Positions 9,903-17,944 of a stretch of 57,700 nucleotides of DNA are shown in pieces. The notes below the pieces were generated by a model, which was given only the letters and a program-made list of their open reading frames with translations, searched no databases and was not told where the DNA came from. The position numbers and the translations under genes are program-made. Origin of the DNA: Lachnospiraceae bacterium (GTDB taxonomy: Bacteria; Bacillota; Clostridia; Lachnospirales; Lachnospiraceae); the NCBI GenBank assembly GCA_011959285.1, contig BLLW01000019.1, positions 1 to 57,700 on the forward strand, in the 5' to 3' direction. Positions within the stretch are counted from its first letter, which is position 1; the number at the start of each line of letters is the position of its first letter.

Positions 9903-9928
9903 TATTTAAACAATTGAATAGCAGTGAT

Positions 9929-10039
9929 GTCTTCAGGGCAGGGTGAAATTCCCGATCGGCGGTTAAAGTCCGCGGGCGCGAAAGCGCGGGGTTTGGTGAA
10001 ATTCCAGAACCGACGGTATAGTCCGGATTAAAGAAGGTG
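9929..10039 (+). promoter_or_regulatory. FMN riboswitch (RFN element)
   Basis: The conserved RFN blocks are present in order: CTTCAGGGCAGGGTGAAATT, CCCGATCGGCGG, an AGTCCGCG loop, a GC-rich variable stem (GGGCGCGAAAGCGCGG), GGTTTGGTGAAATTCCAGAA, CCGACGGTATAGTCCGGAT and the closing GAAGG that pairs with the initial CTTC. The aptamer binds FMN and shuts down riboflavin synthesis or uptake genes. Here it precedes ribU. Confidence 0.97.
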
Positions 10040-10123
10040 TATTGAGATTGTCAGATTCATTCTGACAATGGATTTTGCACTCTTTTTTGTCAAATTGCAC
10101 TGTTGACATTTTCAATACACCTT
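10034..10123 (+). promoter_or_regulatory. FMN riboswitch expression platform (long-range 12-bp pairing)
   Basis: AAGGTGTATTGA (10034-10045) overlaps the 3' strand of the aptamer closing stem and is the exact complement of TCAATACACCTT (10112-10123). A small hairpin, ATTGTCAG/CTGACAAT at 10047-10069, followed by a T-rich run at 10082-10088, lies inside. FMN binding should decide which pairing forms. Confidence 0.7.
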
Positions 10124-10189: not shown

Positions 10190-10762
10190 ATGAATATCAG
10201 TAAATCAAAGAAACTCACAACAATAGGGATGTTATGCGCACTTGCTTATGCAGCAGTGGCTTTTGGGCGCATCCCGCTTATACTTTTTTTGAAGTATGAC
10301 CCCAAAGATGTCATCATAACAATCGGAGGATTGATTTTCGGACCGCTTACATCCCTTGCTATAACGGTGATTGTTTCTGTAGTGGAAATGTTTACAATCA
10401 GCACAACAGGAATCTTAGGCTGCGTTATGAATATTATTTCTGGCTGTTCCTTTGCGTGCACTGCCGCATTTATCTACAAAAAGAAGCGTAAACTTTCAGG
10501 TGCCATTTTGGGACTTTTGTGCGGCTGGGGCTGCCAGGTTGTAGTAATGATGCTTTGGAACTATTTAATAGCTCCAATCTACATGGGCTATCCAAGAGAA
10601 GCTGTCATAAAATTACTGCTTCCAGCATTTTTACCTTTTAATCTAATCAAAGGCGGTCTGAATGCATCGATAACAATGCTATTATATAAACCCATTGTTA
10701 CCGCCTTGCGGCATTCAAACTTGATGGAATCTAGGCATAATAATTTAAAGCAGCAGTTTTAA
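10190..10762 (+). CDS. ribU: Riboflavin ECF transporter substrate-binding subunit RibU
   Basis: This 190-aa integral membrane S component of an energy-coupling-factor transporter should have six membrane segments. It carries the conserved RibU block with PKDVIITIGGLIFGP at about residues 43-57, after a first helix with GMLCALAYAA. It takes up riboflavin together with the shared EcfA/A'/T module, which is not in this window. The ATG has AAGGAGG 7 bases upstream. The FMN riboswitch in front ties expression to flavin status, which independently supports the riboflavin assignment. Confidence 0.95.
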   Translation: MNISKSKKLTTIGMLCALAYAAVAFGRIPLILFLKYDPKDVIITIGGLIFGPLTSLAITVIVSVVEMFTISTTGILGCVMNIISGCSFACTAAFIYKKKRKLSGAILGLLCGWGCQVVVMMLWNYLIAPIYMGYPREAVIKLLLPAFLPFNLIKGGLNASITMLLYKPIVTALRHSNLMESRHNNLKQQF

Positions 10763-10843: not shown

Positions 10844-10881
10844 TTCCCCTGTTGCGAAAAATAGGGGAATGATGGTATACT
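10844..10881 (+). promoter_or_regulatory. Extended -10 promoter of the four-gene DUF5717 operon, with an inverted repeat over the -35 region
   Basis: TTGCGA (10852-10857), an 18-base spacer and TATACT (10876-10881) preceded by TGG, an extended -10. TTCCCCT (10844-10850) and AGGGGAA (10863-10869) form a 7-bp inverted repeat around the -35 box that could be an operator. Transcription would start near 10888, downstream of the GTG at 10886, which rules that codon out as the start. Confidence 0.65.
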
Positions 10882-10930
10882 TATAGTGAAGATTACGTAC
10901 GAGAAACAGGCAACTGGAGGATTGGCGGCC

Positions 10931-13900
10931 GTGCAGGACACAATAGAAAAAATTTTGGAAGGAAATTTTAATAAAGGAGTTCGCTCTCTGGATTTTTCAG
11001 ATCCTGTGATCGAACTTTCTCTGCGCGAGGGAGAGGATTATGAGGGCAGCTTTACCATATTTGGTCCTGAAAATGAGGTGACGGCGGGAATCGTATCCTC
11101 CACCAGGCTGCGTATGAGATGTTTGACAGAGCGCTTTTCCGGTCCTAGGGAAGAAATTCAGTATTTCTTTGATGCCTCGGGTATGATGGAAGGGGATGTT
11201 ATTAAGGGGGAATTCCGGATTATCTCCAATCAGGGAGAATACTATGTGCCTTATGATGTGCGTATCGTTTCAGGAACGCTGGAATCAGAACTTGGAAGCA
11301 TCAAGAATCTGTTTCATTTTGCCAATCTTGCCAGGACTAATTGGGAGGAAGCGGTAGGGCTGTTCCATTCAAAGGAATTTGAGCGCGTGTTCACAGGAGT
11401 GGACAGGCAGTATCTTGGAATTTACAAAGGTCTTGTGAAAGGCAGCAGAAGACAGCAGAATGTGGAAGAGTTTCTGCTGGAAATCAAAAAGAAACAAAAG
11501 GTTCAGTTCCTGCTTGAGGAAGCGGAAATCCGGATGGATAATCCGGGAAATATGGAAGAGGGAAGACTTATCATTAACCGGAATGGATGGGGATACTCAG
11601 AACTCTTCATAGAAAAAGAGGGAGATTTCCTTGTGCTGGAAAAGCAGGTGATCAGGGATGAGGATTTCCTGGGAAACTGCTACAGACTGCCTTTTTATAT
11701 TTCAGAGGAACAGCTTCATGGAGGCAGGAATTACGGAACCATTCATTTGTATAATCCTTATGTTTCCCTGACGGCACAGATCACGGTGGTCAACAAATCG
11801 GTGACCACGAAGGTGTTTGGCATGCGCAGGCAGCACAAGCACATGATTATGGAGTTGATGCAGTATTATGAGGCATTCCGCACTAGGAAAATCAGTGCCG
11901 CTTTGTGGATGAAAGAGACAGGGGAGCTGATTGATAAGATGATCCAGATGGATGATCATGATCTGGCGGCAAAGCTTTTTCAGGTGCAACTCCTTATTAC
12001 AGAGGAACGTTACAACGAAGCACAGTGGCTGCTTGAGCAGGCATCGGGACAATTAGAGGGTGAGTTTGCCCCGACGCTTTATTGCTATCATTTATATCTG
12101 ACTACTTTGCTCAACAGGCAGGAAGAATATATTGATGAAGTGGCAGGTCAGGTGGAAAGGATCTTTACCCAAAATTCAGATGACTGGAGGATTGCATGGC
12201 TTCTTTTATATCTGGCAGAGGACTATACGAGAAGTCCTTCCAGAAAGTGGATTATTTTGGAGGATCAATGTATGCAGGGGTGCAAAAGTCCGGTAATCTA
12301 TATAGAGGCATGGAATCTGATTTTGTCTAATCCTACACTTTTGATGAAACTTGCCCCTTTTGAACTGCAGGTACTGACCTATGCGGCAAAGAAGGAACTT
12401 CTTTCGCCTGGTGTGATCGAGCAGATTATTTATCTTGCGGGAAAGCAGAAAAATTACTCGAGAAGATTGTTCTTTATCCTAAAATGCTGTTACAAAATCG
12501 TCCCCACAGATGAAGTGCTGCAGGCAATCTGTACCTTGCTGATCAAAGGAAATATGACGGATGAATTTGCATTTCCCTGGTATGAAAAGGGAATTGAAAA
12601 GGAACTTAGGATCACAAGACTGTATGAATACTATATGATGTCTTTAAAACTTACGCCGGATAAAGAGATTCCGAAGATTGTGCTGATGTATTTTGCATTT
12701 GACAGCAATCTGGATAGTTTACATAACTCTTTTCTCTACGCCTATATTCACCGGAATAAGGCACAGTATCCGGAACTGTACGAAAGCTACCGTGAGCAGA
12801 TCGAGCGTTTTATGGTATTCCAGATTTTAAAAGGAAAAAATAATCAATATCTGGCATATTTGTATAAAAATCTGGTTACACCCATGATGATTACGGAGGA
12901 AACGGCAAAAGGTCTTTCGGTCGCTATTTTCATGCATCGTTTAACCCTTATGCGTAAGGATATCAGGAAAGTTATTCTGGTGTATGATAAAGAAAAGCAG
13001 GAAGTGGTCTATCCTGTTACCGGTGGGGAAGTGTATATTCCCGTTTATGGCAGTGATTGTCGGCTGCTCTTGGAGGATGGTCGGGGGAACCGTTACTGCA
13101 GGGGAGAGGAATATATCATTGACCGGCTCCTTGTGCCTGACAAGATTGCTTCCATGATAGCGCCTTATGTGGCGGACTGCATCCACTTTGATCTCTGGCT
13201 TTGCGAAAAGGGCAGGGAGATGGTTCAGATCAACGAGAACAATGTGACATATATGAAACGGATTACGGAATCCGATCAGGTGGAAGTGGAAGTCCAGCGT
13301 GAAATCAAGATGAAACTGATTCACTTTTTCTACGATCAGGACAGGATGAAGGAGTTGGATGACTATTTGAAGGAACTATCGCCTGCGGAAATTGAAAATC
13401 GCTGTTTCGCCCAAGTAGTGCGTTTTATGGTTCTCAGAGGAATGTATGAGAAGGCATACGACTGGATTAAACTTCGCGGAGGAGAGGGGATAGAGGCAAA
13501 ACTGATTGTAAGACTTTGCAGCCGGCTGCTTGCGGTGGAGGGCATGACAGAGGAGAGTACCATGACGATGCTGATCTTCATGGCATTTAAGGCAGGCAAG
13601 TATGACGAAAACCTGCTGCGCTATCTGTGCATGTATTTTAAGGGAACCTGCAAGGAGATGCGGGATGTCTGGAAAGCGGCGGAGGCTTTCGGCGTTGAAA
13701 CCTATGAGCTTTGTGAGCGGATCTTGATACAGATGCTCTATACAGGAGCTTTTGTGGGGGAGGGCGCAGACATTTTTAAAAAATACATCTCTGGCGGGGC
13801 TAAGACTGAGGTAGAGCTGGCATTTCTTTCCCAGAGCGCTTATGACTATTTTGTGAAGGATAAGGTGACCAGTGAGTTTGTTTTAGAGGATATGCAGAGG

Positions 13901-14488
13901 GTCATCAACAGGCAGGAGGAAATTCCCCTTGTTTGTAAGCTTGCCTATACAAAATTTTATGCGGAGAACAAGAAATTGGTGGATGAACATATATCGCGCT
14001 GTCTGCTTGTCTTTTTGCGGGAGATATTGATGCAGAAACTATGCTTTCCTTACTTTAAAGAATATGCGGATAACATCGCCTTTATGCGGCAGTTCATGGA
14101 CAAGACCATGGTGGAGTACCGTGTGAAGGACGGCAATGTGGCAGTCATTCATTACCTGATGGAAAAGGAGGAAGGCGCCGAAGGGGAATATGTCAAGGAA
14201 GAGATGAAGGATATGTTTGGCGGAGTATGTGTCAAAGAGTTTATCCTTTTCTTTGGAGAGCATTTGCAGTATTATATTACAGAAATAGAAGACGGGAAAG
14301 AGTACCTGACGGAAAGCGGGACCTTAAGCAGGAACGACACTGTAAGAGAGCAGAAGGAAAACAAGTATACCATGCTCAACGATATTTCAATCGGAAGAAA
14401 TCTGCATGATTACGATACCATGGAAAGTCTGCTGCATGAGTACTTTGAACAGGATTATATTGTGAAGGAATTGTTCCATATGCTTTAA
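10931..14488 (+). CDS. DUF5717-family large protein of unknown function
   Basis: The protein has about 1185 residues and no signal peptide or obvious membrane segment. I recognise it as the DUF5717 type found in Lachnospiraceae; no function is established. The first 300 or so residues look beta-rich (two blocks of alternating hydrophobic strands), and the rest looks like an alpha-solenoid with TPR-like helical pairs such as LAAKLFQVQLLITEERYNEAQWLLEQA. The GTG at 10931 has GGAGG (10916-10920) upstream and lies downstream of the predicted transcription start. The in-frame GTG at 10886 is only 5 bases after the -10 box. It is first of four closely spaced genes, with the DUF5716 gene 40 bases downstream. 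It may be a scaffold for that Hsp70-like partner, which is inference. Confidence 0.8.
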   Translation: MQDTIEKILEGNFNKGVRSLDFSDPVIELSLREGEDYEGSFTIFGPENEVTAGIVSSTRLRMRCLTERFSGPREEIQYFFDASGMMEGDVIKGEFRIISNQGEYYVPYDVRIVSGTLESELGSIKNLFHFANLARTNWEEAVGLFHSKEFERVFTGVDRQYLGIYKGLVKGSRRQQNVEEFLLEIKKKQKVQFLLEEAEIRMDNPGNMEEGRLIINRNGWGYSELFIEKEGDFLVLEKQVIRDEDFLGNCYRLPFYISEEQLHGGRNYGTIHLYNPYVSLTAQITVVNKSVTTKVFGMRRQHKHMIMELMQYYEAFRTRKISAALWMKETGELIDKMIQMDDHDLAAKLFQVQLLITEERYNEAQWLLEQASGQLEGEFAPTLYCYHLYLTTLLNRQEEYIDEVAGQVERIFTQNSDDWRIAWLLLYLAEDYTRSPSRKWIILEDQCMQGCKSPVIYIEAWNLILSNPTLLMKLAPFELQVLTYAAKKELLSPGVIEQIIYLAGKQKNYSRRLFFILKCCYKIVPTDEVLQAICTLLIKGNMTDEFAFPWYEKGIEKELRITRLYEYYMMSLKLTPDKEIPKIVLMYFAFDSNLDSLHNSFLYAYIHRNKAQYPELYESYREQIERFMVFQILKGKNNQYLAYLYKNLVTPMMITEETAKGLSVAIFMHRLTLMRKDIRKVILVYDKEKQEVVYPVTGGEVYIPVYGSDCRLLLEDGRGNRYCRGEEYIIDRLLVPDKIASMIAPYVADCIHFDLWLCEKGREMVQINENNVTYMKRITESDQVEVEVQREIKMKLIHFFYDQDRMKELDDYLKELSPAEIENRCFAQVVRFMVLRGMYEKAYDWIKLRGGEGIEAKLIVRLCSRLLAVEGMTEESTMTMLIFMAFKAGKYDENLLRYLCMYFKGTCKEMRDVWKAAEAFGVETYELCERILIQMLYTGAFVGEGADIFKKYISGGAKTEVELAFLSQSAYDYFVKDKVTSEFVLEDMQRVINRQEEIPLVCKLAYTKFYAENKKLVDEHISRCLLVFLREILMQKLCFPYFKEYADNIAFMRQFMDKTMVEYRVKDGNVAVIHYLMEKEEGAEGEYVKEEMKDMFGGVCVKEFILFFGEHLQYYITEIEDGKEYLTESGTLSRNDTVREQKENKYTMLNDISIGRNLHDYDTMESLLHEYFEQDYIVKELFHML

Positions 14489-14528
14489 TGTCAGAGGGAT
14501 AAGAGTTCAGTGTGCAGGGGAGATAAAC

Positions 14529-15842
14529 ATGTTTCAAAGTCAGAGAGATCAGACAGGTAAAAAGAATTATAAGAAAGTGGCTGTGGGATATGATTTGGGG
14601 AGAAATTTTGCCCAGATTAGTTACTGCGCTTTGGAAGAGACGGAGCCGGAAACTGTTTCAGCTGTTGCAGGTACGGAGCAATACAACATTCCAGCGCTCT
14701 TGTGTAAAAGACGGGGCGTAGGGCAATGGTATTATGGAAAAGAGGCTATTAAATTTGCTAAGGAAGAAGACGGTATTCTGATAGAGGATTTGATTACTCT
14801 TGCGCAGCGGGGGGAGGACGTGATGGTGGAAGGAGAGGCATTTGACCCAGCAGCGCTTCTTACGCTGTTCGTCAAAAGGAGCCTTTCACTTCTAAATCTG
14901 CGCGTTCCTTTCAATCAGATTGAAGCGTTTATGTTTACGGTGGAGGAACTTACGCCGCGGATGGTGGATGTACTTGAGAAGGTGGCAGTGGGACTGAAGC
15001 TGGGGGATGCCCGGATTTGCTTTCAAAGCCATATGGAAAGTTTTTATGCCTATACGCTCCACCAGGACAAGGAATTATGGAAGAATGATGTTGTGATTTT
15101 TGAATATCATGATACGCTTAAAAGTTTGTGCTTAGAGTGTAATACACGGACCATGCCACAAGTGGTGTTCATTGAACAGACAGATTATCCGGAGATGAGA
15201 AGGAGAGTCTGGAAGGAAGATGAGGAGGAGAAGAAACAGCAGATGGAGGAGTTGGATCAGCTGTTTTTGGGAATCGTGCAGGAGGGGGTCCGCGACAGAA
15301 TCGTTTCTACCGTGTTTTTATTGGGGGACGGATTTAAGGAGAACTGGGCGAAGGAGTCTTTAAAATATCTGTGCAGGAACCGCAGGGTGTTTCAAGGGAA
15401 TAATCTCTATAGCAAAGGCGCCTGCTATGGTCTGCTGGAACGTTTAAATCCCAGTAAAGAGTGGAAAGATTATGTATATCTTGGAGCCGATAAGTTAAAG
15501 GCGAACATCGGAATTAAGGCGCTCAGACGGGGAGAAGATTCTTACTATGCACTATTGGATGCAGGAACTAATTGGTATGAGGCAGCAGCGGATTTTGATT
15601 TGATTTTGGAAAGCGGCAATACCGTGGACTTTGTCATTACGCCACTTACGGGAGGAAATGTGACCAACAGGATTCTGGCGCTGGAAGGGCTGCCGGAACG
15701 TCCAAAGCGAACCACTAGGTTGAATGTACATATTGAGATGACTGCTGTCAATCAGGCGGCTATAACGATAGAGGATATGGGATTCGGAGAATTGTTCAAA
15801 TCCAGCGGAAAGGCATGGACACAGACGGTTATGGTGCAATAG
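14529..15842 (+). CDS. DUF5716-family Hsp70/actin-fold-like protein
   Basis: This 437-aa protein begins like an Hsp70/actin-fold ATPase (VAVGYDLGRNFAQISYC, the phosphate-1 loop) and has a late adenosine-type segment, VFLLGDGF, at about 260. The C-terminal 60 residues resemble an Hsp70 substrate-binding beta sheet (ALEGLPERP, then LNVHIEM, then IEDMGFGELFKSSG). The phosphate-2 position, normally Asp-x-Gly-Gly-Gly-Thr, reads FEYHDTL at about 196, so nucleotide hydrolysis is doubtful. I recognise it as the DUF5716 type. It is the second gene of the operon and is preceded by AGGGGAGA. It may be a pseudo-chaperone or structural actin-like protein. No function has been assigned. Confidence 0.8.
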   Translation: MFQSQRDQTGKKNYKKVAVGYDLGRNFAQISYCALEETEPETVSAVAGTEQYNIPALLCKRRGVGQWYYGKEAIKFAKEEDGILIEDLITLAQRGEDVMVEGEAFDPAALLTLFVKRSLSLLNLRVPFNQIEAFMFTVEELTPRMVDVLEKVAVGLKLGDARICFQSHMESFYAYTLHQDKELWKNDVVIFEYHDTLKSLCLECNTRTMPQVVFIEQTDYPEMRRRVWKEDEEEKKQQMEELDQLFLGIVQEGVRDRIVSTVFLLGDGFKENWAKESLKYLCRNRRVFQGNNLYSKGACYGLLERLNPSKEWKDYVYLGADKLKANIGIKALRRGEDSYYALLDAGTNWYEAAADFDLILESGNTVDFVITPLTGGNVTNRILALEGLPERPKRTTRLNVHIEMTAVNQAAITIEDMGFGELFKSSGKAWTQTVMVQ

Positions 15843-15892
15843 GGTGGTAGAAGGATTACTAATTTGGAGAAAGGTTTAGGAAGTGACCGTTT

Positions 15893-16726
15893 ATGGGCAG
15901 AATTTTATTATGTACAGGAAAATATGCCGAAAATCCATATTTTGTTGAAAGTGTATGCGTGAATGTGTACTGTGTTGAGGAACTTTGCTATCTTTTTGCC
16001 AGCAAACCTTTTATGATCAATCGGGAAATCATGGATGAAGGGCTTGCCCAGTGGCTGGGGCAGGAATGTGGTCTTACGGAATTGAGCCATCAATTGCTCA
16101 ATTTGTTTCATAAGGGCAGCCAGCCGGGAATCTTTGTGAGCATTATTTTGGACTATGTGAATTATTGCACGCCGGAGGAAAAAAAGAAAATAGAGGACGT
16201 GCTCCAAAGCAATGCAGGATTGAACGATTATGAAAGACAGAAAAGGCAGGCAGATTTTCTTCTAAAAAATGCGAAACCCAGATTGGCGATAGAGGAGTAT
16301 GACCGCCTCCTGCGGCAGCTGCCGGAAACAGAAAGCGCGCTCAAGCCGCCTATATGTCATAATATGGGTGTAGCATATGCAAGTCTGTTCCAGTTTGAGA
16401 TGGCAGCGCGGTACTTCAAAAAGGCATATGATATGACTGGTAACAGGGAGTCGGGGGTACAGTATCTTACAGCGCAGAGGATGAATCTTAAGGAGAGTGC
16501 TTATATTGCCTTTATTGCCGGGCATGGAGAATTTCATGATCTTTCTTTGCAAGTGGAAAAGAAGCTGGAAAAGGCAAAGGGCGAATTTGAGGCATCTCAG
16601 GATAATAGAATGCTGTCGGCACTCAAGATTTATAAGGATGAGGGGAATGTGGCTTCTTATTATGAGGAAATCGATAAGATTATTTCCGGCAAAAAGGATG
16701 CATACAGGGAACTAGTGGGACAGTAA
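15893..16726 (+). CDS. Hypothetical TPR-like protein of the DUF5717/DUF5716 operon
   Basis: The 277-aa soluble protein belongs to no family I can name. The N-terminal 100 residues contain a CVNVYCVEELCYLF segment and conserved-looking helices. The middle (about 115-210) has TPR-like helical pairs, with KPPICHNMGVAYASLFQFEMAARYFKKAYDMTG matching the TPR spacing of small and large residues. It sits 50 bases after the DUF5716 gene and 33 bases before the membrane coiled-coil gene, all on one strand, so it is probably co-expressed. The start at 15893 has only a weak AGGAAG. A protein-protein adaptor role is likely but inferred. Confidence 0.7.
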   Translation: MGRILLCTGKYAENPYFVESVCVNVYCVEELCYLFASKPFMINREIMDEGLAQWLGQECGLTELSHQLLNLFHKGSQPGIFVSIILDYVNYCTPEEKKKIEDVLQSNAGLNDYERQKRQADFLLKNAKPRLAIEEYDRLLRQLPETESALKPPICHNMGVAYASLFQFEMAARYFKKAYDMTGNRESGVQYLTAQRMNLKESAYIAFIAGHGEFHDLSLQVEKKLEKAKGEFEASQDNRMLSALKIYKDEGNVASYYEEIDKIISGKKDAYRELVGQ

Positions 16727-16759
16727 CGAAATGAAAACGAATAGGAAGATAGGAAAAGT

Positions 16760-17944
16760 ATGGGTTTTATAAAGAAACTGCTACAACGGAAAAAGAAACA
16801 GGAAGTGCCGGAATATGAGATTGAAGACTGGAATGAGGTGGTCTACGACAGGGAAGATTATCAGATTAATGATAAGGTCCAGCGTGAAGAATACGTGAGG
16901 GGATGCCTAGAGCAGATTGCGGAGGCGTCAAGGGAGCTTGATAACCTTCAATTTGAATATAATATGGTCACTGCCTATTTAAAGGATATGGAGGAGATTG
17001 AAGCGCTGCCGGAAGAAGAGATGGCAGAGCTTATGGAGTGTGCCAAAAAGATTGATGCCTTAGAGCAACAGCAGTCCGGCTATAAAGAGAGAGCAAACCG
17101 GATGAGTGAGGAAGCTTATCACCAGATGGAGCGTCTTGAGGAAGAGATTCAGGAAGGGTTTGAAAAACTGACACAAGCAGAAGAATATCAGGATTTTATC
17201 AAGAGGGATCTGCGTAAGCTGGATGGAGAAAAACATGCTTATCTGTTTAGGAGAAATGAGCTTCGCCGTGTCATTACGGATACGCGGTCCATGGCGGTGG
17301 TGTGTTCGGTGGCAGTGATTGCATGTATTTTACTTCTTTTTATTCTGCAGTTCGGATTTGATATGAATGCCAAGCTGGGATATCTGGCGGTGGCTGCCGT
17401 GGGAGCCATTGCAATTACGGCAATTTTTATTAAGCACAGTGATTCGGTGAAGGAACTCTCCCGGGTGGAGGGCGGCATCAACCGCATCATAAGGCTTCAA
17501 AATACAGTAAAGATACGCTATGTCAATAATACCCACCTGCTGGATTATCTCTATATGAAATATAACGTGGCAAGCGCCAGCGAGCTTGGAAAGACCTGGC
17601 AGCAGTACCAAGTGGAGAAGGCGGAGCGTCACAGCTATGAACAGGCAGAGCGGGAGCTGGATCAATGTCAGAAGGAACTTTTGCATGCGCTTCGCCGTTA
17701 TCAGATTAAAGATCCTATGATCTGGCTGCATCAGACGGCGGCAATTCTAGACAGGAAAGAGATGGTTGAGATCCGTCATAATCTGATCATTAGGAGACAG
17801 TCCTTAAGAAGGCGCATGGATTATAATAAAGAGGTGATAGCAGGCAAAGCCCAGGCTGAGATCAAAGATCTTGCAGAAAGTTACCCAGAATATGCCAAGG
17901 AGATCCTGGATATTGTGGGACAGTATGAAGAGGATTTTTCTTGA
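16760..17944 (+). CDS. Hypothetical membrane-anchored coiled-coil protein of the DUF5717/DUF5716 operon
   Basis: The 394-aa protein has a basic N-terminus (FIKKLLQRKKKQ), a Glu/Gln-rich coiled coil at about 45-165, and a hydrophobic hairpin of two membrane segments at about 174-198 (MAVVCSVAVIACILLLFILQ) and 203-223 (LGYLAVAAVGAIAITAIFI). A second helical, coiled-coil region runs to the end. This topology puts both long arms in the cytoplasm and suggests a membrane tether for the other operon products. It ends the operon: the next gene follows after 108 bases containing an 8-bp inverted repeat (TGCACTTT at 17987, AAAGTGCA at 18006). I do not recognise a named family. Confidence 0.72.
   Translation: MGFIKKLLQRKKKQEVPEYEIEDWNEVVYDREDYQINDKVQREEYVRGCLEQIAEASRELDNLQFEYNMVTAYLKDMEEIEALPEEEMAELMECAKKIDALEQQQSGYKERANRMSEEAYHQMERLEEEIQEGFEKLTQAEEYQDFIKRDLRKLDGEKHAYLFRRNELRRVITDTRSMAVVCSVAVIACILLLFILQFGFDMNAKLGYLAVAAVGAIAITAIFIKHSDSVKELSRVEGGINRIIRLQNTVKIRYVNNTHLLDYLYMKYNVASASELGKTWQQYQVEKAERHSYEQAERELDQCQKELLHALRRYQIKDPMIWLHQTAAILDRKEMVEIRHNLIIRRQSLRRRMDYNKEVIAGKAQAEIKDLAESYPEYAKEILDIVGQYEEDFS

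Follow-up and report, generated by a model that had tools for sequence, protein, structure and literature searches.

The locus described here occupies positions 10931-17944 of a 57,700-nucleotide stretch of DNA (assembly GCA_011959285.1, contig BLLW01000019.1, positions 1 to 57,700 of the forward strand), referred to below as the window. It originates from a member of the Lachnospiraceae, which are among the commonest gut bacteria. Four long open reading frames (ORFs) follow each other head to tail on the same strand, separated by gaps of 40, 50, and 33 bases. This tight packing had been noted in a preliminary description of the window, in which the genes were presented as an uncharacterized operon for a giant solenoid, a pseudo-Hsp70, an adaptor-like tetratricopeptide repeat (TPR) protein and a membrane coiled coil. 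The features were assigned as follows, where sister refers to the other families of the order and to their corresponding operon.

10931..14488, + strand: gene 1, DUF5717, an immunoglobulin (Ig)-like or beta N-terminal part (N-part) and a TPR-containing solenoid, proposed scaffold (Pfam and sister-family profile)
14529..15842, + strand: gene 2, DUF5716, putative pseudo-Hsp70 with a part resembling the nucleotide-binding domain (NBD) and a tail resembling the beta part of the substrate-binding domain (SBD-beta), without a lid (Pfam, profiles, and tree)
15893..16726, + strand: gene 3, TPR protein (weak TPR match; aligns to the sister-operon TPR protein)
16760..17944, + strand: gene 4, protein with two transmembrane (TM) stretches and coiled-coil-like arms on both sides, putative accessory membrane anchor (hydropathy; coiled coil by eye)
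17270..17440, + strand: TM hairpin of gene 4 (hydropathy scan)

The frame of gene 1 extends from 10886 or 10931 to 14488 and encodes 1200 or 1185 amino acids depending on the start. The GTG codon at 10931 was favored over the mechanical ORF start at 10886, because the frames in many close relatives encode 1185-1190 amino acids and a Shine-Dalgarno-like CTGGAGGA lies just 5′ of 10931. Genes 2, 3, and 4 encode 437, 277, and 394 amino acids, respectively. Genes 1-4 were compared with the related loci L136-L140 for the ratio of nonsynonymous to synonymous substitution rates (dN/dS). Of 20 comparisons, 13 had a computable dS and gave ratios of 0.017-0.062, values that are rough since dS was around 1 or more in all 13. 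All four are genuine, closely spaced genes subject to purifying selection. Scanning the window proteins with NCBIfam gave nothing over cut-off. Using Pfam, genes 1 and 2 were identified as full-length members, far above cut-off, of DUF5717 (DUF5717_N and DUF5717; PF18984, E 0, and PF18983, E 2e-104) and DUF5716 (DUF5716_C; PF18980, E 7e-111). The operon is conserved, and its first two genes are known to databases, so that "uncharacterized" holds for function only: Pfam gives none for either family. The Hsp70 ancestry of DUF5716, the operon and its sister-family counterpart are added here.

Compared singly with the sequences of the PDB, the gene 2 protein of the window gave chance-level matches only. 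A profile built from 32 DUF5716 proteins gave six matches at E ≤10, all of them to DnaK (E 0.0046-0.016) and all aligned from the N-terminus. Using hhalign, DUF5716 was aligned to a set of 11 Hsp70s, including three sister-family operon-type Hsp70s (from loci L237, L239, and L250), with 97.6% and E 3.7e-12 for residues 14-257. Residues 351-421 formed a further colinear segment (E 0.0011, probability 20.5%), which corresponded to the end of SBD-beta. Against five DnaK sequences alone, the values were 82.6% and E 9.6e-6, with 8.8% for the tail segment. Controls remained low: 1.0% for MreB (two sequences), at most 1.7% for seven unrelated neighbor families and at most 0.5% for genes 1, 3, and 4. 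DUF5716 therefore appears to hold an NBD-like part and an SBD-beta-like tail in the same order as Hsp70 (DnaK, PF00012). It differs from Hsp70 in lacking the phosphate-1 threonines, the lysine, the phosphate-2 GGGT and the alpha-helical lid, the window protein ending about 16 residues past the tail motif, and in having no GrpE-like gene in the operon of the window. A sequence block around VFxGNNLYSKGACY is strongly conserved in DUF5716.

The counterpart of the locus was sought in the order. DUF5717_N was present in 62 of 116 genomes, of which 51 fall outside the Lachnospiraceae (one below cut-off). Twenty-five of these 51 sister loci, picked by hand, were read; several of the operons were cut by contig ends, those of genomes G930, G931, G986, and G990 among them. 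The sister gene order is Ig-like N-part, TPR solenoid, Hsp70-A, GrpE-domain protein, Hsp70-B, Hsp70-C, Hsp70-D, TPR protein and, sometimes, gene 4. DUF5717 was split in 20 of the 25 loci into an N-part of about 400 amino acids (found in 19) and a solenoid of about 900 amino acids, and formed one frame in the other five. The Hsp70s measure about 559 (A), 525 (B), 546 (C), and 692 (D) amino acids, and the TPR protein corresponding to gene 3 about 387, with four TPR_2 stretches in L257. Counted by script, the 25 loci held the solenoid in 25 cases, A in 23, the GrpE-like protein in 20, B in 19, C in 18, D in 19, gene 3 in 18, and gene 4 in five; these counts omit A, GrpE, C, and D of genome G929, which are present on reading. 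In G929, which belongs to another family of the order, all nine genes follow in order and are succeeded by a valyl-tRNA synthetase gene; its gene 3 is a 123-amino-acid piece adjoining an unlabeled ORF of 195 amino acids. Its Hsp70-D (L253:4343-6384, minus strand) lies in two overlapping-frame pieces, owing to a frameshift or an assembly error.

The GrpE domain was C-terminal and scored a Pfam E of 5e-12 in L257 as well as in L253, and the profile matched solved GrpE at E 4.4e-4; the protein carrying it is mostly 560-645 amino acids long, and 279 in L253. Hsp70-D carried a C-terminal VWA domain in the same two loci (L257:13000-15075; in L253 in pieces). Pfam tests of GrpE and VWA were confined to these two loci, and elsewhere both proteins were recognized by alignment, length, and position. 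As the corresponding operon encodes four Hsp70s along with a GrpE-domain protein, the chaperone theme proposed in the preliminary description was borne out. In loci L259, L267-L270, and L288-L291, a different membrane protein (349-482 amino acids, with TM-like stretches) precedes the Ig-like gene. Such upstream TM proteins, in loci without a gene 4 protein, were considered as gene 4 relatives and rejected, no relationship being recognizable (hhalign 1.8%).

The motifs of the Hsp70 groups were aligned by MAFFT to DnaK of the window's own genome. Phosphate-2 GGGT was found in all A (23/23), C (18/18), and D (19/19) proteins, and in none of the B (0/19) or DUF5716 (0/32) proteins. Phosphate-1 TT was present in D (19/19) and absent from B (0/19) and DUF5716 (0/32); groups A and C had been sorted partly by this motif, so that D alone is a free test of it. 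Likewise, the catalytic-lysine column was K in all A, C, and D proteins and never in B (0/19) or DUF5716 (0/32). At the aligned column of the NEP site, the catalytic glutamate was found in four of 19 B proteins and in no DUF5716 protein (0/32). By alignment and profile, gene 2 is a divergent Hsp70 that has lost its phosphate-binding motifs and lysine, an assignment that is new here and that agrees with the pseudo-Hsp70 of the preliminary description.

Hsp70-B of L257 was recognized by two Pfam models, DUF5716_C (E 2.6e-27) and HSP70 (E 7.2e-17), and that of G929 matched gene 2 of the window at E 3e-35. A quick 59-row tree placed B together with DUF5716 at an SH-aLRT support of 100 and DUF5716 alone at 99, with C coming next. 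A tail motif D-x-G-(F/L/Y)-G is shared by B (18/19), DUF5716 (32/32), and C (12/18) proteins and occurs in none of A, D, or DnaK; in DUF5716, the motif, as D-x-G-(F/L)-G, sits opposite DLGTG of DnaK. This distribution of the motif fits an origin of B from a C-like gene. Judged by tree and motifs, Hsp70-B is the ortholog of DUF5716 and already motif-degenerate, A, C, and D retaining their motifs. Since B and DUF5716 both lack the motifs, the pseudo-Hsp70 is motif-less in either branch of the order.

The remaining genes were assigned in the same manner. Gene 1 consists of an N-part of approximately residues 1-290, called Ig-like by eye from the sequence pattern alone, fused to a solenoid of approximately residues 295-1185. 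The sister-family solenoid profile matched solved designed TPRs at E 6.3e-8, from which the solenoid contains TPR, as expected of the giant repeat protein proposed earlier; the profile of gene 1 gave no match to PDB sequences. For gene 3, a TPR match at E 1.7e-5 fell below the Pfam cut-off, and hhalign aligned the protein to the sister-operon TPR protein with 99.6% and E 1.3e-23. Gene 3 also weakly matched a MinC N-terminal-like domain (E 0.0033), as did two of 11 relatives. Gene 4 is the only one of the four with membrane-length hydrophobic stretches, two of which were found by hydropathy in residues 171-227; its arms were called coiled coil by eye, and no Pfam family scored over cut-off. An ortholog in G929 matched the window protein at E 4e-35. 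The adaptor-like TPR protein and the membrane coiled coil of the preliminary description could thus be retained. On these alignments, gene 1 was shown to join in a single chain the counterparts of the sister Ig-like and TPR-solenoid proteins; gene 2 was likewise shown to group with Hsp70-B, and genes 3 and 4 to correspond to the sister TPR protein and membrane coiled coil. An aminotransferase gene on the opposite strand was found upstream of the operon in both groups (29 matches among 58 Lachnospiraceae loci, 13 among the 25 sister loci).

Genes for Hsp70-A, -C, and -D and for the GrpE-domain protein are absent from the locus in Lachnospiraceae. A search of 60 Lachnospiraceae genomes for the GrpE-like protein gave no full-length match and two short GrpE-domain matches only. 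A census of Hsp70s in 40 Lachnospiraceae genomes, 37 of which gave a match, yielded DnaK and, in many, another Hsp70, the extra proteins being judged by length and score. The same 40 genomes gave no frame of D length, nor any near-full-length match scoring 176-257 bits as A and C do. In the window's genome, DnaK was the sole Hsp70 at E 1e-30, accompanied by two weaker MreB-like matches. We infer that A, C, D, and the GrpE-like protein were lost in Lachnospiraceae rather than gained elsewhere.

Of 291 genomes sampled across the class, 10 had DUF5716, and of 398 across the phylum, five had DUF5717_N; all of these were Lachnospiraceae. In a class sample, the solenoid profile matched seven Lachnospiraceae genomes; five weak matches from beyond the order, with E values between 6.6e-9 and 5.6e-4, were confined to profile positions 461-619, a span that overlaps the TPR stretch. 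Among 250 sampled Lachnospiraceae genera, DUF5716, mostly as a single copy, and DUF5717 were each present in 244 (each in 199 of 202 good genomes). Both were unmatched in five genomes (G387, G417, G318, G380, and G512); as solenoid fragments are present in G387 and G417, three remain without either. DUF5717 alone was missing from G310 (67% complete) and DUF5716 alone from G435 (68% complete).

For gene order, 58 Lachnospiraceae genomes were read together with the window. They had been picked by hand, are mostly high-scoring with long contigs, and include G299 and G328, which were chosen as seeming exceptions. Genes 1-2-3 followed each other on one strand in 57 of the 59. The exceptions were G299, which is cut by contig ends, and G328, which has gene 1 on a separate contig. 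In the latter (L128 and L129), gene 1 and genes 2-3-4 both lie mid-contig, and it is the sole such Lachnospiraceae genome read. Gene 4 lay directly 3′ of gene 3 in 27 of the 59 genomes and was found in 113 of the 250 genera, a few of these being weak partial matches. On a tree of genes 1-3, its presence (25 of 57) requires at least five changes. The preliminary description had proposed conservation of gene order as a check and scattering with independent loss as grounds for rejection; the order of genes 1-3 is conserved, but gene 4 comes and goes, and so the unit is not one of four fixed genes. All of the nearest 80 loci, which were chosen by DUF5716 similarity and are close relatives rather than independent samples, carry gene 4, and this near sample alone would mislead. 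A replacement gene in the place of gene 4 was looked for and discarded, the next gene then being of varying, ordinary kind. Several gene 4 matches among the 250 genera hold one or two in-frame stops, which fit either ongoing loss of gene 4 or assembly errors.

From this set of comparisons, it is moderately probable that the locus is a reduced multi-Hsp70 operon, in which a TPR scaffold with a non-cycling Hsp70 subunit would form an ATP-independent platform for assembly or holding. In the Hsp70 ancestry of DUF5716, as read from the alignments, we place far more confidence than in this mechanism. The DUF5717 solenoid would serve as backbone, and DUF5716 as a non-cycling Hsp70 module that may hold a polypeptide or partner via its SBD-beta-like part, or may be a structural subunit. 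The TPR protein encoded by gene 3 would be an adaptor providing a link to clients or to other chaperones such as DnaK and HtpG, and gene 4, where encoded, a membrane tether. The assembly would work as an ATP-independent holding platform, not as a folding engine. Same-strand htpG (Hsp90) genes within 3 kb upstream of gene 1, found in four of 58 and 15 of 78 Lachnospiraceae loci, hint at such a link to other chaperones. In six loci (L093, L107, L108, L124, L160, and L161), htpG ends 54-130 bases upstream of gene 1. The broader proposal that a core machine of the Lachnospiraceae is an Hsp70 without its ATP engine, mounted on a giant Ig/TPR scaffold as the final stage reached from a nine-gene, four-Hsp70 system, is possible and put forward tentatively.

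Several observations weigh against the platform or the steps leading to it. The Pfam HSP70 model recognized none of the 32 DUF5716 proteins singly at E ≤5, and long branches meet in the Hsp70 tree. Whether the catalytic glutamate has been lost hinges on how the sequences are aligned, for a glutamate lies within a few columns of the NEP site in 19 of 19 B and 28 of 32 DUF5716 proteins, and the phosphate-1 aspartate was kept in 18 of 19 B and 27 of 32 DUF5716 proteins; because of these two residues, nucleotide binding by DUF5716 may persist. The B position of the operon is held by proteins that no model recognizes in G968 and G987. More than half of the 250 genera gave no match to gene 4. The aminotransferase neighbor was found in only three of the 78 nearest loci and is missing from the window, where the neighbors (riboflavin transport, amino-acid ATP-binding cassette (ABC) transporter, and purine genes) give no hint of a chaperone. 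A scan of the DNA separating gene 4 from the ABC transporter genes recognized no intrinsic terminator. As for htpG, the gap to gene 1 was 1.3-1.9 kb in 13 of 19 cases, the 78 loci are close relatives, and such a neighbor was seen neither in the 25 sister loci nor in the window.

The observations on nucleotide binding also bear on a different reading, in which DUF5716 is a structural or signaling subunit, the Hsp70 fold being reused as a nucleotide sensor or scaffold in the manner of a pseudokinase, and DUF5717 with the TPR protein forms a cytoskeleton-like or envelope-associated complex. Loss of the hydrolysis motifs with the phosphate-1 aspartate mostly kept would suit such a subunit, as would the GxG pattern that the adenosine-side loop of DUF5716 keeps, the strongly conserved VFxGNNLYSKGACY block, the near-universal and mostly single-copy presence in Lachnospiraceae, and the lack of a J-domain among the sister-operon proteins scanned by Pfam. 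It is nevertheless considered unlikely, as the SBD-beta-like tail was kept and the GrpE-domain gene and three motif-intact Hsp70s of the sister operon argue for a chaperone origin. The same tail speaks against DUF5716 being an actin-fold protein of the MreB/FtsA/PilM type within a filament or pilus-like assembly. General kinship within the actin fold would allow this, and the Pfam model MreB_Mbl scored sister Hsp70-A, -C, and -D over cut-off, though far below HSP70; PilM_2 scored one Hsp70-C at E 0.0038, and the two TM helices of gene 4 recall membrane partners of such proteins. With 1.0% for MreB (two sequences) versus 97.6% for Hsp70 by hhalign, however, this explanation is extremely improbable.

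The closest published set of parts that was found is the GTPase-centered GAP1-N2 theme of conflict systems, which, in the part of Kaur et al. 2020 (PMC7159879) that concerns it, comprises HSP70, GrpE, in a subset a second HSP70, and FNIII fused to TPR or DnaJ. The sister operon likewise combines HSP70, GrpE, and a beta-sandwich/TPR protein. The HSP70 and GrpE models matched in the sister operons and not in the window, and the beta domain was not called FNIII by Pfam. On the strength of this similar list of parts, the locus could be a derivative of such systems with a role in defense. Compared with the theme as described in that part of the paper, the window version lacks GrpE and a motif-intact Hsp70, no DO-GTPase or GAP1 was found, and its distribution is not patchy. 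The Pfam search for DO-GTPase and GAP1 covered the four proteins of the window and 19 sister proteins or pieces, 16 from operons L257, L253, L272, and L292 and three upstream neighbors, and was negative in both. PADLOC models gave no match at E ≤0.01 to the four window proteins and one weak match among four sister proteins. This was the Hsp70-VWA protein of L257, which matched PDC-M61B at E 2.7e-7. Near-universal presence in Lachnospiraceae is also unlike that of patchy defense genes, and a defense role was judged very improbable.

A further likeness exists to DnaK2 of M. xanthus, described in the relevant part of PMC11019930 as a DnaK paralogue with its own linked GrpE-type nucleotide-exchange factor. 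The sister operon shares with it an additional Hsp70 and a linked nucleotide-exchange factor; it differs from the system outlined there in having four Hsp70s and a scaffold, and the window keeps the motif-degenerate one alone. In the open-licence full-text literature, a scope that most subscription papers fall outside, no description was found of the operon or of the Hsp70-VWA fusion, and DUF5716/DUF5717 turned up in one unrelated paper only. A search of the transposon and essentiality literature gave no title on Lachnospiraceae among the matches listed.

The DNA upstream of gene 1 was scanned for regulatory features, with the following result.

10852..10881, + strand: promoter-like site TTGCGA-18-TATACT (promoter scan)
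10844-10853/10860-10869, no strand assigned: inverted repeat over the -35 region (sequence scan; not conserved)

Both features of the dedicated promoter with an inverted repeat, from which regulation had been suggested, do exist. Since 23 such promoter-like sites were found in the region versus 14.1 expected by chance, the promoter scan alone proves little; a comparable site lies upstream of gene 1 in the close relatives L136, L137, and L143. The inverted-repeat pattern was matched in two of 71 related loci over a wider upstream stretch (a narrower scan gave one of 69), namely in L135 and L136, the two closest relatives. As no others match, the repeat is no evidence of conserved regulation and was rejected as a conserved operator or regulatory feature. 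Further upstream, an FMN riboswitch (RF00050, 102 bits) lies at 9925-10042 of the window, ahead of an ECF transporter substrate-binding gene (10190-10762) that probably encodes a riboflavin transporter.

A 7-kb operon whose marker genes are each present in 244 of 250 genera, and which is without an assigned function, represents a gap in the core biology of the Lachnospiraceae. The sister operons bring to light an operon of four Hsp70s with a GrpE-domain protein and an Hsp70-VWA fusion. They would also form a natural series, leading from motif-intact Hsp70s to a pseudo-Hsp70 with the scaffold kept, and this series may offer a direct way to address how an Hsp70 functions once its ATP cycle is gone.

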